Assembly (NCBI RefSeq): GCF_017654505.1
Contig: NC_054553.1
Span: 6,635,618-6,699,617 of the forward strand
DNA from: Polyodon spathula
Lineage: Eukaryota; Chordata; Actinopteri; Acipenseriformes; Polyodontidae
Direction: 5' to 3'
Length of the DNA stretch: 64,000 nucleotides
Part shown: piece after piece, positions 44,794 through 63,388 of the stretch
Position numbering within the stretch: the first letter of the stretch is position 1
Layout: each line of letters opens with the position of its first letter
Notes under the pieces: generated by a model
The model's database searches: none
What the model was told of the DNA's origin: nothing
The model's input: the letters and a program-made list of their open reading frames with translations, nothing else
Position numbers and translations under genes: made by a program

Positions 44794-46209
44794 TATATCC
44801 ATTGTTTAACTGCTATTGATTTCTGGGGTTTTATATTGAACTCAATCATTCATGACATTGTATAGACCACGTTGTTCAGTATATACTGTAAGAATGTTTT
44901 TTAAGATTTTTTTTCTATAGAGCCTAAAAACAAAGATTCAAAGGAAATACATTGATATAGAATACTGTCAGCTTCAAGTGTTCAAGAAAATCCACTGACA
45001 AAATGCCCAAGCTTTATCAATGGGATCCACACAAACTATCCTTTTTCAATGAATAGTTCGGCTTAATGCTTTACTTCTATGGTCTTGTACAGGCAAGCGA
45101 CTGTAGCATTATAGCCTGTGTAATAGGTAGATGAGGGAATTAGTAATGGTAAAAATCTTACATTTATTAAGGGTGAATTATTCGACAAAACCTGGCATAA
45201 TATTAACACTGCTTTCAAATGATCTCCTACTAAATGACAACATTTAGAAAATAAATATTTTCATCTCAGTAAAAATAGAAATCCAATATGGCACATCAGA
45301 GTTGTATGTAATTATGGGAAACATAATCTAATACTTAATACGTTCTGTACTGTATTACCAATATTACTGTTTCAGAACTAGAGCGACAGATGCTATATTA
45401 ATGTTGCTATCTTGCCAATGGCTGTGTGCAATACACTGTCAACATTATTGTTTTTACCTACAATCTACAAAACCATATGAAACAAAAATGAAAGCCTTTT
45501 TAAATTCACTTTCTCTAAATGAAGAACTTTAAATTAGTCGCTCTGGTTCTAAGCCATATGAATATTGGTATTTAAAAAAAAAAGGAATTATGTAAGAACG
45601 TATCAACTGTTTCTTGTTTAAATAGATTTAAACATGGACAGTTTGTTAAAAAATGTTACCAAAATTTATATTCCTTTGCAGTTCTTCAGAAATGTGGAAT
45701 TATCTTCCATCACAACAGTTACTTCTATATCAGGTGGCTAACATGGAGTTAGCAGGAGCTACCTGACCTTATACCTGTAATTTTGGCAAAGGAATAGAGC
45801 AATACAGATGTGGCACACTTTACCGTTCATTAAAAAAGTAGGGTATGAGTTAGTCATACAACCCTGCCTACTTATTTCTTACATCAGTTTCAAATTGGAC
45901 CTGCATTGACCCAGTATAATTAGATTCATATTTTCAACTAGATCAGCCAGGTAACCTCGCCTTCTAGATGATCCACTGCACTGATTTCTGTGATGCCTAG
46001 CCTTACCAGAGAACTTTCCGCAGGTCACTGGGCTCTATGCCTGCAGTGAGAGCCAGCAAGAGTTATCTGGAGCTTTTTGAGATAAGGGACTCTGCACGTA
46101 GGCGGTGCATCATTGACCAATTGTTAAGATTTCAACCTGAAATATTTTCATTCACACCCTTTATTTGAATTTGATTTCCCTCTATCTTTATTACTACTCC
46201 CACCTTTTG
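44794..46209. other. Sequence downstream of TENT5D
   Basis: The TENT5D 3'UTR probably ends within the first 100 bp below 46210, though a longer UTR cannot be excluded. Nothing else is recognised. Confidence 0.5.
46160..46192 (-). terminator. Two AATAAA polyadenylation signals after TENT5D
   Basis: Minus-strand AATAAA hexamers occur at 46192-46187 and 46165-46160, about 18 and 45 nt beyond the stop codon. Either would give an unusually short 3'UTR; more distal sites may also be used. AATAAA is a common hexamer in AT-rich DNA, so use is inferred. Confidence 0.4.
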
Positions 46210-48489
46210 CTACACCAGACCAGTCTGCATGTGGATGTGCAGTGGGTAGGGGTGGTAGATGATTGGCGGCTGCCCATGAGCAATGTAGTAGTTGCTGAAG
46301 TTGTGGTCACTCATGTAGGGCGCTGGTTGGTAATAGCAGGTCACATTGGTTGTGTTGGGGATGATGTTCTGCTCGCCAAGGACCTTTAGAGCCAGGATAG
46401 TGATCATGTTGAGAGTCTGGCGCCGCTCATGGCCCATTAGACAGACAGTGCTCTCATCGATCACCCTACGCAGGGTCATCAGGTAGTCATACTTGCTCTT
46501 CTCCTCGCCAATGAAATGGTTGCGCAGGTAAGACTCGATCTTACGCTGCTGCTCGTTGACATCCGAAAAGTCGATGAAGAAGCGTGAACACATGTAGCGC
46601 TCTAGGGTTTTGAGCTCTGTCTCACAGGCTGGCTTGAACTCCCTGACCAGCAAGTTGCTGTACTTAAGGAGCCCACCACCACGAATCTCCTCTGGGTTCC
46701 TGGTTGCAATCAGCCGGTAGCGCAGGTGGTCCATGGCCTGCTCAAAATCTCCATACATGCTCTCGGCCACCACAGTCAGGGATGGCAATTCCTTGTTCTG
46801 GGCAAGGGATTCAGTGGCCTGGGCTGCTGAATCCTTGTCCTGGGCTGGCAGTGTCTTGCCCCGGGCTGGTAATACTTTGGCCCTGACTTGTAAATCTTTG
46901 GCCTGAGTTGATGAATCCTTGAGCTGATCTGATGAGTCCTTGACCTTGAGTGGCAATGCTTTAGTCTGGGCCACCAATTCCTTTTCCTGGACTGGCAAGG
47001 CTTCAACATGGCCTGGTAAAGCTTTGGCATGAGTCCTTACCTCTGTGGACTGGGCTGGTAATGCCTTACCCTGGTTCATGGACTTCTTGTCCATGGTAAT
47101 GCATTTCTTGGTCTGAGAAGATAAGTCTTTGGCCAAGGCTGGTGATTCCTTGTTCTTGGCCAGTGACTCCTTGGACTCTGCCAGTAAGTCTTTGACCTGG
47201 GCTGGCAATGCCATGATTTTGGTCAAAGATTCCTTATCCTGGGCTGGTGCTATCTTGTCCATGGTTTCTGACTCTGCGGCCACTGTCATTGATTCCTTGA
47301 CCAGGATCATGGACTTCTTGGCTGGGGTCTGGGACTCCTTTATTGGCATCAGTGATTCTTTGTTCTTTGTTGATGATTCTTTCCTCTGGACTGGTGACTC
47401 AATGTCTTGGGGTGGGGTTTCTTTTCCCTGGACTGGTGACTCTATGTCCTGGGTTAGTGTTTCCTTGCCCATGGCTGGCGACTCCTTGTCCTGGATTAGT
47501 GTTTCCTTGCCCATGGCTGGTGACTCCTTGTCCTGGGCTGGTGATTTCATGTCCATGGCTGGTGTTTCTTTGCACTGGGCTGGTGACTTGTTGTCCCGGG
47601 TTGGTGTTTCCTTGCTCATCGGTGGTGTTTCCTTGCACATGACTGGTGTTTCTTTGCCCTGGTCTTGTGATTCATTGCCATGGGATGTTGTTTTCTTGTC
47701 CAGGGCTGGTACCTCATTTTCCTGGACTGTCAACTGGTTGTCCTGGGCTAGTGATGCCTTGGCCTCAATCAACAATTCTTCTGCCTGATCCACTGACCTT
47801 TGGGTCTGGGCTTGCAATGTCTTGTCTTGGGCTTGCATTTCCTTAGCCTGAGTTTCTTTGGTCTGTTCAAGGAGGTTCTTGGCCTTGGCTATCACTGCCA
47901 TTTCTTTTTCAGAGTCCTGGTAAGACTCCAGTATATGGTCCAGGATAATCTGAAAGGAGTCCACGCTGAACTCAAACTGGCGCCGCATTGAGTTGACGAA
48001 CTTGAGTTCCACATTTTTCCCACTGTTGTTGGAGAGCGAGATGAGGCTCCAGCGGTCATGCTCGGTGGAGACCTTAACCATCTTCTGAACATATGCATCC
48101 TTCATGGTGAGTGCAGTGATTTTGTCCTTGTTGACGCACTTGGGCAAGAAGTCTAGCAAGCAATCAAGGACTACCTCCTTCACAATCTGGAAGTCCTCTT
48201 GCTTGGGGAGCTCCACTCCAAAAATAATGTCCAGATCCTTATAGCTGGTTCCATTCTCATTGACCAGGATGTGACTTGCAGTCGAGCCATTGAGACGGAT
48301 GTCACGAACAGTTATCTCCTTTTCAACCAGTCGCTCTTTTACCACATGGATGATGTCCTTGGGTTTCACCTGCAGTGTTGGGAAGTTGCCTCTCCCGTGA
48401 ATGGGTATCACCTCCGTTAGGACCTGGTCTAAAGTAAGAACTTGTTCAATTGTCAGGTTATGAAACCTACGTCCTGGTCTCTCAGTCAT
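46210..48489 (-). CDS. TENT5D: TENT5D-like (FAM46 family) non-canonical poly(A) polymerase with a 51-unit heptapeptide insertion
   Basis: This 759-residue frame starts with ATG in good context (A at -3) and ends in TAG. TENT5 proteins are nucleotidyltransferases that extend poly(A) tails of selected mRNAs; mammalian TENT5D is testis-enriched (family knowledge). Residues about 10-195 form the catalytic half: HGRGNFPT near 31-38, GS at 68-69, Y-K-D-L-D with D85 and D87, and VELKF with E161 as the third carboxylate. Residues 573-759 are the C-terminal half, with AESMYGDF, NPEEIRGGGLLKY (598-610), RYMCSRFFIDF, CLMGHERRQTLN and the YYQPAPY tail. The wording KPKDIIHVVK and VVAESMYGDF favours TENT5D over TENT5C, although the last 50 residues also resemble TENT5C. 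Human TENT5D is about 389 residues, so about 370 are extra here, almost all between residues 190 and 572. The reading frame is uninterrupted and the motifs are intact, so the enzyme is probably active. The single coding exon fits TENT5C/D. Ortholog assignment is about 80% sure; family assignment is near certain. Confidence 0.95.
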   Translation of the reverse strand: MTERPGRRFHNLTIEQVLTLDQVLTEVIPIHGRGNFPTLQVKPKDIIHVVKERLVEKEITVRDIRLNGSTASHILVNENGTSYKDLDIIFGVELPKQEDFQIVKEVVLDCLLDFLPKCVNKDKITALTMKDAYVQKMVKVSTEHDRWSLISLSNNSGKNVELKFVNSMRRQFEFSVDSFQIILDHILESYQDSEKEMAVIAKAKNLLEQTKETQAKEMQAQDKTLQAQTQRSVDQAEELLIEAKASLAQDNQLTVQENEVPALDKKTTSHGNESQDQGKETPVMCKETPPMSKETPTRDNKSPAQCKETPAMDMKSPAQDKESPAMGKETLIQDKESPAMGKETLTQDIESPVQGKETPPQDIESPVQRKESSTKNKESLMPIKESQTPAKKSMILVKESMTVAAESETMDKIAPAQDKESLTKIMALPAQVKDLLAESKESLAKNKESPALAKDLSSQTKKCITMDKKSMNQGKALPAQSTEVRTHAKALPGHVEALPVQEKELVAQTKALPLKVKDSSDQLKDSSTQAKDLQVRAKVLPARGKTLPAQDKDSAAQATESLAQNKELPSLTVVAESMYGDFEQAMDHLRYRLIATRNPEEIRGGGLLKYSNLLVREFKPACETELKTLERYMCSRFFIDFSDVNEQQRKIESYLRNHFIGEEKSKYDYLMTLRRVIDESTVCLMGHERRQTLNMITILALKVLGEQNIIPNTTNVTCYYQPAPYMSDHNFSNYYIAHGQPPIIYHPYPLHIHMQTGLV
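46774..47844 (-). repeat. 21-bp coding minisatellite: 51 in-phase heptapeptide units inside TENT5D
   Basis: Residues 216-572 divide exactly into 51 units of seven residues with no phase shift. 37 units begin with K, E or D is the commonest second residue, position 3 is S, T or L, position 4 is P in about 22 units, and A-Q-D is common at 5-7 (examples KESPAMG, KETPPQD, KALPAQS, KTLPAQD). One or two further units (KNLLEQT, then KETQA with two residues missing) lie just N-terminal. Units 10-25 are rich in S/T-P, and units 29-51 shift toward leucine at position 3. The proline content argues against a continuous coiled coil and for an extended, disordered, highly charged tether. No family function is known to me for such an insert. 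Confidence 0.93.
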
Positions 48490-54390: not shown

Positions 54391-54485
<95 letters not shown>

Positions 54486-54546
54486 TAAGCTATGACGTTT
54501 TGGTATTATGAACCATATATATAACCATATATATATATATATATGA

Positions 54547-54633
<87 letters not shown>

Positions 54634-54710
54634 CTATATTCATATATATTATAGATACACATATATAAGTATATATCTATATATCTATATATCACACACA
54701 CCACACAACG
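54391..54710. repeat. Compound TA/CA microsatellite block
   Basis: A long TA tract (about 80 bp) passes into a CA run at about 54471-54485. After about 30 bp of unique sequence further TA tracts follow to about 54629, with short imperfect TA/TC/CA remnants to 54710. The 157-codon minus-strand frame is only this repeat translated. Confidence 0.95.
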
Positions 54711-55507: not shown

Positions 55508-55930
55508 CAGAATAAACTGTCTGTTAACTCTACCCTTTATTAAGGAATGTATTTCATATCGCTCTTGGTTATTTATTAATGTACGAATGGTGTGTATCTG
55601 CATGTATGTGTTGTTGTTGTTGCTGCTGTTTGTGTGTTTGTTTAAAATAGATAAATAAAAAGCATGCCTGGAAAAGCATGCCAGAGACTTGAATAATTAC
55701 TTCCAATAGGCCTATAATACTTTTATTAAAACAATGTGCAATGTTCTTTTCATATTTGCTTTAATTCAAGAATCAAGTAATGTAATGTGCACTTAGCATA
55801 GGATAAAATAATAAATAAATAAATAACGAATACATCAATAAATAGATAGATCAAGAAATAAAGACGAAAATAACACATAAATCAATGAAAAGATAGATAC
55901 ATAAATACATAAATGTAATAATAAATTATA
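55506..55930. other. Intergenic DNA between the ATT and TA/CA microsatellites
   Basis: AT-rich, with a TGT/TGC-rich stretch around 55610-55640 and AAAT/GATA runs at 55810-55910. No gene is seen. Confidence 0.5.
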
Positions 55931-55980
55931 ATATTTAATATATATATATATATTATATATATATATATATATCTATATAT

Positions 55981-56057
<77 letters not shown>
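55931..56057. repeat. TA then CA microsatellite abutting the Tc1-like element
   Basis: TA tracts from 55931 pass into a CA run at 56025-56060 that is continuous with the transposon tip. Confidence 0.95.
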
Positions 56058-56062
<5 letters not shown>

Positions 56063-57630
56063 CCGGTCAAAAGTTTTAGAAGAAGTTTTATTGAAATTTG
56101 CGCAGTTTAATGTCTCAATGTACTCTGAAATTAAAGCATAGAACAAATAAACAATTGGAGATAAAAAAAAAGAAATCATGGAATTGTTTTGTTTAACAAA
56201 ATTTAATCTATATTTTTGACTCATCAAAGTAGCCAACTTTTGCAGATATAACAGCCGAACACACTCGTGGCATTCTTTCTACAATGGAAATCAAATATTG
56301 TTTGGAAAGTTCTTCCCAACACTGTTGCAGAAGTTCCCACAAATGTGTTGCACTTGTAGGTTGCTTTGCTTTCATCCTTCTGTCAAGTTCATCCCAAACC
56401 AACTTGATGGGGTTTAAGTCTGGAGACAGTGCTGGCCATTCCATGATTTGAAGCCTACCATCTTGTTCTTTTCTTCTAAAGTAGTTCTGACATAGCCTGG
56501 ATGTATGTTTTGGGTCATTATCTTGCTGTAGGATGAACCCCTGACCAACCAGAGGGTATTGCATGGCACTGAAAAATGCTGTGGTAGCCGTTTTGGTTCA
56601 GGGTGACACTCACTCTGTGCAAGTCGCCGACTCTGGATTCAGCAAAAGAGCCCCAGACCATCACGCTTCCTCCTCCATGTTTGACAGTTGGTGTCACACA
56701 CCGAGGAACCATCCTTTCGCCTACTCGATGGCATACAAAAACCCTGCGTGATGAACCGAACATTTCAAATTTTGATTCATTGGTCCATATGACCTTCTTC
56801 CAGTCTTCAGTAGTCCAGTGGAGGTGCTTCATGGCCCAGGCAAGCCTCTTTTTCTTATTTTGCCATCTTAGCAATGTCTTTCTTATGTCTTCTCTTCACA
56901 GATGAAACTGAGACTTGCTTACTTTGACCAGTGTTAAGCTGTGCTTGAAGCTGTTGTCCTGTGAGCTACCTATCACGCAAGCTGTTGACTCTCAGAAACT
57001 TATCTTCTGATTCTGTTGTGGCTTTGGGTCTGCCAGACCTCTTCCTGTCAGAGTTTCCTCCAGTTTCCAAGTGCCTTTTGATGGTGTAGGAAACTGTACT
57101 CACTGACACCTTGGCTTTCTTTACAATTTCTCTAAAGGAAAGCCCTACACTTTTAAGGATTATAATGGTCTGTCTGTCTTCCTTTGTTAATTGCCTTTTT
57201 CTCGCCATTATAGTAGCAATATACTACTTCCTGCAGTACAATACTGTCCAAATAATGCTTAAGAGGGTCTAGTAACACAGTCTGCTCCAACACTGCTTTT
57301 ATACAGACAGAGGGTTTGTAAGTAATCAACAAAAGTTGGGACACCTGTAGGAATTGTTAGCATCAACTTTCAAGGCTTAATTTACTTCCATTGCTGCAGA
57401 ACAGCTGTAAGTTGCTAATCCACAACTTGTTCCCTGAAAAAGGCCTTTTTGTATAACTCTGAAATGTACATTATTTTTCAGTTTTTGGTAACCTAAACTT
57501 TTTTTTTTAACCTCTGGCAGTTTACCGCTTGCCTTTGTACCATTTCAGGTTATTCACTGGACTTGAACTGCTTAAATTTCAATAAAAACTGGAAAAAAGG
57601 GGGTGTTCTAAAACTTTTGACCGGTAGTGT
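56057..57630 (-). mobile_element. Tc1-like DNA transposon, decayed, about 1.57 kb
   Basis: Terminal inverted repeats match over about 26 bp: CACTACCGGTCAAAAG reads inward from 56058 on the plus strand and from 57629 on the minus strand. Weaker inverted similarity continues inward (TTTTATTGAAATTT on both sides), with a short deletion in the left arm. The length is typical of Tc1/mariner, and a broken transposase fills the interior. The expected TA target duplication cannot be resolved because both flanks are TA/CA microsatellite. Confidence 0.92.
56208..57208 (-). pseudogene. Tc1-like transposase pseudogene
   Basis: Three frames together cover a complete Tc1-type transposase. The first (57208-56966) has the N-terminal helix-turn-helix, with LSFREIVKKAKVSVSTVS and a GRPK hook, and ends at an in-frame TAG in the sequence following LRDR. 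The second (to 56518) holds the first part of the DDE domain, with VKHGGGSVMVWG. The third (56564-56208) has QQDNDPKHTS and ALSPDLNP. At least one stop and two frameshifts separate them. The first catalytic Asp is Asn (WTNESKFEMF, where the family has S/T-D-E), and the third acidic residue is Lys (NPIKLVW for NPIE). It is therefore catalytically dead. Confidence 0.92.
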
Positions 57631-62261: not shown

Positions 62262-63388
62262 AGATTTTATATTAAAATGCATTAAAATAGTTTTTTTTTC
62301 ATTTATCTACACATGCTAGCTAGCTACCCCACAACTTCCAAGTGAAAAAAAATATTCTAGAAATTTGTAGAAAACGTATTAAAAATAAAAACTGAAATAG
62401 CTTGATTGGATAAGTGCCCACCCCCTTTGTAACAGCAATCCTAAATTAGCTCAGGAGTAACCAATCTCCTTCAAAATCACACACCAAGTTAAGTGGCCCC
62501 CACCTGTGTTAAATTGTAGTGATTCACATGATTTCAGGATAAATTCAGCAGTTCCTGTAGGTTCCCTCTGATGGGTTGTGCATTTCAAAGCAAGATTCTG
62601 TAGCCATGTGGCAAAAAGTTTTGTGGTCTGACGAAACTAAAATTGAACTTTTTGGCCTAAATGCAAAGCGTTATGTTTGGCACAAACCCAACACAGCGCA
62701 TCACCCAAAGAACACCATCCCTACTGCGAAGGATCGTGGTAGCAGATTCATGTTATGGGGATGTTTCTCATTGGCAGGGACTGGGGCACTTGTCAGGATA
62801 GAAGGGAAAATGAATGAGGCAAAGTACAGAGAAGTCCTTGAGGAAAACCTGCTGCCTTGTGCAAGAAAGCTGAAACTGGGACGGAAGTTCACCTTTCAGC
62901 ATGACAACGACCCAGCCAAAGCTACACTGGAATGGCTAAGGAACAAAAAGGTAAATGTCCTTGAGTGGCCCAGTCAGAGCCCTGACCTAAATCAAAAATT
63001 TGTGGCATGACTTGAAGATTGCTGTCCATCAACGCACCCCAAGGAACTTGACAGAGCTTGGCCAGTTTTGTAAAGAAGAATGGTCAAATATTGCCAAACT
63101 AAGTGTGCAAACTTGGTAGAGACCTATCCAAACAGACTCACAGCTGTAACTGCTGCCAAAGGTGCTTCCACCAAGTATTAACTCAGGGGGGTGGAGACTC
63201 CAATTATGTTCTTTCAGTTTTGTATTTTTAATACATAATTTTTTTCTCAATAAAAACTTTATTCCCCTTAACAGTGTGGAGTATAATGTGTAGATAAGTG
63301 GAAAAAAAATCCTCATTTAAATGCATGAAACTCTGAGGCACTGACACAAAACAATGTAAAAAAAGTTCAAGGGGGTGTATAGGCACTG
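62262..63388 (+). mobile_element. Second Tc1-like transposon, internally deleted
   Basis: The right end carries a long terminal repeat arm ending at the tip CAGTGCCTATACACC (minus strand, from 63388). Its inner part, around 63290-63330, is inverted-complementary to the left arm at about 62270-62325 (ATGCATT and ATCTACACAT shared). The outer left tip is missing or unrecognisable. The interior holds the distal two-thirds of a transposase, and the N-terminal DNA-binding region is deleted. The length is about 1.1 kb against about 1.6 kb for a full element. It belongs to a different subfamily from the element at 56-57.6 kb. Confidence 0.85.
62576..63180 (+). pseudogene. Tc1-like transposase fragment (catalytic domain)
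   Basis: The frame 62576-63010 gives a DDE domain with VLWSDETKIELFG (first Asp present), RFMLWGCFS, FQHDNDPAKAT (second Asp present) and WPSQSPDLN. A deletion of a few bases right after DLN shifts the frame and removes the third acidic residue. The family C-terminus continues in another frame (NLWHDLKIAVHQRTP, then ELGQFCKEEW) to about 63180, with further stops. The N-terminal helix-turn-helix half is absent because of an upstream deletion. It is non-functional and would depend on transposase supplied elsewhere. Confidence 0.9.

Follow-up and report, generated by a model that had tools for sequence, protein, structure and literature searches.

The seven-residue repeats of paddlefish TENT5D look like a sturgeon-and-paddlefish version of an insert of ray-finned fishes

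TENT5 enzymes extend poly(A) tails on mRNAs that encode secreted proteins, and male mice that have lost Tent5d are sterile (PMC11193744). The enzymes are built of two lobes, the active site being located in the cleft, and the C-terminal lobe can rotate away (PMC10075960). Truncations of human TENT5D set the boundary between the catalytic and helical regions at residues 209/210, and the C-terminal region of the protein binds FNDC3 at the ER (both from PMC13291444). A low-complexity insertion within a catalytic fold is also described for TENT1/TUT1, in which the palm has a proline-rich insertion, although TENT1/TUT1 belongs to another TENT family and its insertion lies inside the palm (PMC6232586). 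A general survey (PMC12457776) deals with tandem-repeat indels in long exons that code for disordered regions, the same general process as the one considered below. In the openly accessible literature on TENT5/FAM46 in fishes, on its evolution and on pseudoenzymes we found no description of the insert reported here.

We analyzed a stretch of 64,000 nucleotides from the genome of the paddlefish Polyodon spathula (Acipenseriformes), referred to as the window, which contains the following features:

46210..48489, minus strand: TENT5D open reading frame, 759 aa from ATG to stop, according to the ORF listing and a translation without internal stop
47905..48489, minus strand: N-terminal catalytic lobe, codons 1-195, with G68, S69, D85, D87 and E161
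46780..47904, minus strand: insert, codons 196-570, 375 residues
46213..46779, minus strand: C-terminal helical lobe, codons 571-759

By its domain and its catalytic residues, the encoded protein is a member of the TENT5/FAM46 family of poly(A) polymerases. PF07984 matches it in two stretches that cover both lobes (E 1.2e-153), and the PDB structures align on either side of the insert, TENT5B to residues 7-198 and 572-743, and TENT5C to residues 12-194 and 571-721. All five catalytic positions (G, S, D, D, E) are intact, with G68/S69/D85/D87/E161 corresponding to G122/S123/D139/D141/E215 of FAM46A at a constant offset of 54. Instead of the short interlobe loop of a typical TENT5D of ~390 aa in total, 390 residues separate the anchors. 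The first-pass annotation, which had described two intact TENT5 halves in one frame with an array between them, and a TENT5D enzyme with its array at the lobe boundary, is thereby borne out, including the coordinates and size of the gene. In a tree of 165 C-lobe columns, the window protein falls among 17 TENT5D rows, together with tetrapod TENT5D and apart from the five other TENT5 loci of the paddlefish (97/96); in the same tree, which has 10 of its 19 inner branches open, the 11 ray-finned TENT5D rows cluster together (96/95). The paddlefish genome was found to contain two TENT5D loci, that of the window (contig C20) and another one on contig C7, both with the array, while the five other TENT5 loci all have a short loop.

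A single heptad register spans residues 197-567, comprising ~53 imperfect units encoded by 21-bp tandem repeats, and the identity at a lag of seven over 390 aa is 0.29, compared to 0.08 in shuffled sequences (z = 16.3). Position 6 of the heptad is Lys in 38 of the 53 units, position 4 is Gln or Met in 33, and position 2 is Pro in 21. Only one unit recurs exactly, occurring twice, and the tandem arrays in the underlying DNA are 62-81% matched, so the "exact seven-residue repeats" reported earlier are confirmed for the period but not for the sequence. The 375 residues of the insert include no F, W or Y and, by charge and hydropathy, plot as disordered. The AlphaFold models of the window protein and of zebrafish tent5d (26 and 27 rows, respectively) are poor throughout, in the lobes as well (mean pLDDT 40.5 and 38.4), and carry no weight for or against disorder or looping. 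A heptad coiled coil is ruled out by the composition, namely the Gln/Met at position 4 and the Pro at position 2. An open reading frame on the opposite strand (47129-47788, plus strand) was taken as a by-product of the stop-free 21-bp repeat. We also considered an origin of the array as a copy of a repeat from another gene and rejected it: the three weakly matching places in the genome that were checked, with C3, C27 and C16 left out, translate into tandem repeats of other sequence.

Tandem repeats are prone to errors, and an artefact of assembly or reading, the danger named in the first-pass annotation, is a conceivable origin of the array. Such an error is hardly credible here, since the sister gene on C7 carries the array in a 745-codon frame, the two loci on different contigs have distinct arrays within colinear flanks, and a protein of 747 aa from Acipenser sinensis (its record is flagged UNVERIFIED) also has the array, its insert being 86% identical to that of the window.

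The survey of inserts covered 216 proteins, i.e. the window's and the best 120 listed by each of two protein searches; it yielded 94 inserts of at least 350 residues, 22 of 60-349, 95 of fewer than 60, and five that could not be placed. Among the matches listed, TENT5D inserts of ~370-740 residues are found at the same place in bichirs (517-528 residues), sturgeon, gar (417), bowfin (427) and many teleosts, including Albula (368), eels, herrings, carps, characins, catfishes, salmonids and perch-like fishes. None of the members examined from tetrapods (turtle and frog among them), lungfish, coelacanth and sharks was found to have a long insert. For instance, TENT5D of turtle (P0156), Xenopus (P0195) and lungfish (P0184) belong to the same clade and share the lobes, the catalytic residues and the insertion point with the paddlefish protein, but have a short loop and a total of 391-396 aa. 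As ray-finned TENT5D are long and the tetrapod, lungfish, coelacanth and shark members short, the insert probably arose in ray-finned fishes, near their root. The view of the paddlefish protein as a one-off TENT5, taken in the first-pass annotation, has to be abandoned, long inserts at this place being common in ray-finned TENT5D.

The identity of these inserts reaches 0.75 and 0.82 in two pairs of perch-like fishes and drops in more distant pairs, to 0.40 between pike and bass, 0.39 between zebrafish and a characin, and 0.29 between gar and bowfin. Paddlefish and sturgeon inserts were the only ones with a strong period of seven residues (z = 17.2 in A. sinensis), while elsewhere the periodicity is weaker, different or absent: a weaker period of 7 or 14 is found in Albula (z = 5.6), Anguilla (4.6) and Paramormyrops (3.3), the Alosa insert has z = 3.1, bichir inserts exhibit a period of 20, and some characins a weak one of 20. 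The proteins of gar (P0005, "futsch"), Denticeps (P0058, "titin"), Pangasianodon (P0036, "mucin-17") and zebrafish (tent5d, P0056) have a long insert at the same place with the tetrapeptide PAKK, as does the paddlefish protein, but the long teleost TENT5D lack a strong period of 7 and add SPKPPRKMS(K/R)K. Lineages seem to grow their own repeats within the TENT5D loop, and, judged from sequence, the heptad repeat looks like the sturgeon-and-paddlefish version of a ray-finned insert.

An alternative reading takes the array for an intron or an exitron, with most or all mRNAs spliced to encode a normal TENT5D of ~393 aa, whether or not a long isoform persists as a minor product. The public models of both paddlefish copies (P0124, P0125 and P0126, 387-395 aa) indeed omit the array, in the window gene as follows (slashes mark the cuts):

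46798..47895, minus strand: 1098 nt cut as an intron by public model P0125, donor GCA/GTGATA, acceptor TTGCCCAG/AAC

P0124, which is the C7 gene minus its insert, is cut at the matching place, and removal of the segment keeps the frame in both genes (1056 nt in P0124 and 1098 nt in P0125), as would be the case for an exitron; moreover, the array evolves at a neutral rate, as an intron would. However, usable and conserved splice sites were not found in the two genes scored with a rough table (the window's and C7): the donor and acceptor of P0125 score -3.3 and 1.9 on this rough scale, and the weak GT donor of the window gene (GT...AG) is replaced with GC in P0124 (GC...AG). The other model of the C7 gene, P0126, is cut elsewhere, and no single cut reproduces it. 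Ray-finned models shortened by removal of the insert number at least 44 among the matches listed, but the linkers of 44 such models, chosen by name, come in 39 versions, a variety to be expected if genes are forced onto short relatives, with divergence between species adding to it. In four of the five species compared (gar, Erpetoichthys, Pangasianodon and Astyanax) there is a long and a short model whose final 170 residues are identical, which, at the level of the protein sequences, is one gene drawn two ways; in the fifth, Electrophorus, the final 170 residues of the pair did not match. The array also contains no frameshift or stop (see below), and the high identity of the inserts in the two pairs of perch-like fishes likewise speaks against an intron. 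We therefore regard splicing of the array from most or all mRNAs as quite improbable and judge the insert-less models to be mostly artefacts of aligning short relatives, a real spliced form being possible.

Comparison of the two paddlefish copies allows the lobes and the array to be contrasted within one gene: dN/dS is 0.08 in each lobe (the N-lobe taken as codons 1-190) vs 0.94 (0.59-1.83) in the array. With CpG excluded, the substitution rate of the array is 0.0667 vs 0.0673 in the pooled flanks, whose four pieces are uneven (0.04-0.10), and codon positions 1, 2 and 3 of the array differ at 0.061, 0.072 and 0.084. Ordinary purifying selection on the residues of the array is rejected for this pair by the dN/dS value and the flank-like rate. 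No frameshifting indel was found in 1035 aligned array sites, compared to 8.05 expected from the flanks (P 0.0003), or 5.62 from a stricter flank set with the indels beside simple repeats dropped (P 0.0036), both expectations being computed from colinear matches at a flank rate that may not suit a repeat. Stops are likewise absent, compared to 3.2 expected from 75 substitutions (P 0.037, by simulation). The arrays differ by four indels, none of them frameshifting, and indels of 2 and 16 residues (the latter being one of three of 42-48 nt) shift the heptad register in C7. The indels of 42-48 nt weigh little because repeat slippage predicts them, and slippage by 21 bp yields in-frame indels without selection, which counts against the argument from frame conservation. 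Given the neutral-like substitution together with the lack of stops and frameshifts, we conclude from these alignments that the reading frame of the array has been conserved, but its residues have not.

Some further properties of the locus were recorded. At synonymous sites the array has diverged less (0.079) than the lobes have (0.14-0.18); it is nearly CpG-free (observed/expected 0.07 vs about 0.5), and this scarcity may explain the low value. The 3' flank (44856-46209) differs from that of the sister gene at 0.046 per site, below the other flank pieces (0.06-0.10), and is perhaps a conserved 3' UTR. Farther away, the window contains open frames that by eye resemble fragments of Tc1-type transposases (56211-56895 and 56969-57223, minus strand, and 62561-63007, plus strand), and long simple repeats of AT type (54392-54692 and 55806-56060), similar to repeats that flank the sister gene.

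The pattern of substitutions bears on the possibility that the heptads themselves are at work, with units of the form K-E-S/T-P-x-x-x binding a partner or serving as substrates of proline-directed kinases, in which case the valency would depend on how many units there are. A period of 7 or S/T-P sites within a disordered region is known from the C-terminal heptads of RNA polymerase II and the KSP repeats of neurofilaments; this is a resemblance only, the paddlefish array being devoid of aromatics. Working heptads would agree with the arrangement of the 13 S/T-P sites, 12 of which are in one heptad phase, with the divergence within the heptad, which is highest at positions 3 and 5 and lowest at position 1 (pooled values 0.22, 0.22 and 0.05), and with the weaker periods of Albula, Anguilla and Paramormyrops. 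However, the effect of heptad position has p = 0.023 in the comparison with the sister gene and 0.24 in that with A. sinensis; S/T-P sites are absent at 4/13 places in C7 (9 kept; two lost by substitution and two in units that C7 lacks) and at 3/13 in A. sinensis (10 kept); the period is lacking in most other inserts; and both the dN/dS of the array and its codon-position differences, given above, argue against such a role. A docking or phosphorylation array, as envisaged in the first-pass annotation, is thus possible, but residue-level constraint does not support it, and we consider it unlikely.

A candidate docking site is the tetrapeptide shared with other fishes:

47314..47325, minus strand: PAKK, codons 389-392, out of phase with the heptad Pro

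Among the matches listed, PAKK is present in 87 of the 94 long inserts, including those of gar, bowfin and most teleosts. Across 19 representative inserts, of which three (Albula, one eel copy and Scleropages) lack it, it appears in 0.5-5% of shuffled single inserts; the figure is 5% for shuffles of the paddlefish insert, where PAKK could be a chance occurrence. In the alignment, the paddlefish PAKK occupies the same column as that of gar, bowfin and teleosts, while the bichir PAKK lies elsewhere and for this reason may be independent. In teleosts, the tetrapeptide belongs to a stretch of ~35 residues ending with SPK[PL][PQ]RKMx[KR], which is found in 80 of the 94 long inserts, often letter for letter. 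For example, P0056, P0067 and P0079 contain ~35 nearly invariant residues (PPPAKK...SQMVVLKHSSPKPPRKMS[KR]K) amid fast-changing sequence. The second half of this motif (SPKPPRKMS) is lacking in the inserts of paddlefish, sturgeon, gar, bowfin and bichir. We presume the teleost motif to resemble an SH3 ligand and a CDK site.

The reading we prefer, to which we assign a probability of about 0.6, is that of a translated, disordered insert that loops out and is kept for its length or bulk around an older docking motif. Paddlefish TENT5D would be a non-canonical poly(A) polymerase with a translated, disordered insert of ~375 residues at the junction of the N-lobe and the C-lobe, and its polymerase core would work as in other TENT5 proteins. 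In short-loop relatives ~22-26 residues suffice to join the same conserved blocks, from which we infer that the insert loops out of the enzyme surface, at the contact of the catalytic and the helical lobe, instead of spacing the lobes apart; the "tether between core and rest of fold" of the first-pass annotation is unlikely on the same grounds. The boundary at 209/210 of human TENT5D lies, by our count, no more than a few residues from the insert site, and, taken together with the bi-lobal structure and the short linker, it suggests that the loop would emerge beside the hinge. The repeats would have grown by tandem duplication inside a pre-existing disordered insert, with the residues of the array free to change while the frame stays open. 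Selection would keep a long, charged, aromatic-poor loop and the older PAKK-centred motif, which most likely would be the docking site for a partner, while the array would set the reach and bulk around it.

The catalytic glutamate (E161, equivalent to E215 of FAM46A) is kept in the window protein and, among the 216 listed proteins, in the members outside P0088-P0121 (P0077 read from the printed sequence). In the 120 listed sequences from pike and salmon to perch-like fishes (P0088-P0121 and P0217-P0302), a sample partly taken from the best 120 listed by a pike-query search aimed at this clade, the position is occupied by Gly in 114, Ala in three and Glu in three (Mugil P0244, Oryzias melastigma P0271, P0281), i.e. 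117 lack the catalytic Glu while keeping the insert. Among the 120, those with a species name comprise salmonids, pike relatives, hake and spiny-rayed fishes, among others. Ten of the 120 keep the serine at position 69, in the GS motif, and 110 lack it; both catalytic aspartates are kept in all of them. It looks like TENT5D of this teleost clade has lost its catalytic activity and retained the insert, and the retention of the insert upon loss of the glutamate hints that the insert may have a job of its own. We tentatively propose, as a possibility rather than an expectation, that ray-finned TENT5D, near the root of these fishes, gained a disordered docking loop and with it a second, non-catalytic job, which outlived the enzyme in the pike, salmon and perch-like clade, where both lobes and the insert are retained, while in paddlefish and sturgeon the enzyme remained intact and the loop was overrun by heptads.

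A large part of ray-finned TENT5D is thus missing from many gene models, and because these models cut the insert out, studies of tent5d in fishes may be working with the wrong protein. A partner could be sought by way of the motif conserved in teleosts, and a large teleost clade without the catalytic glutamate would provide a natural test of roles of TENT5 other than poly(A) synthesis.
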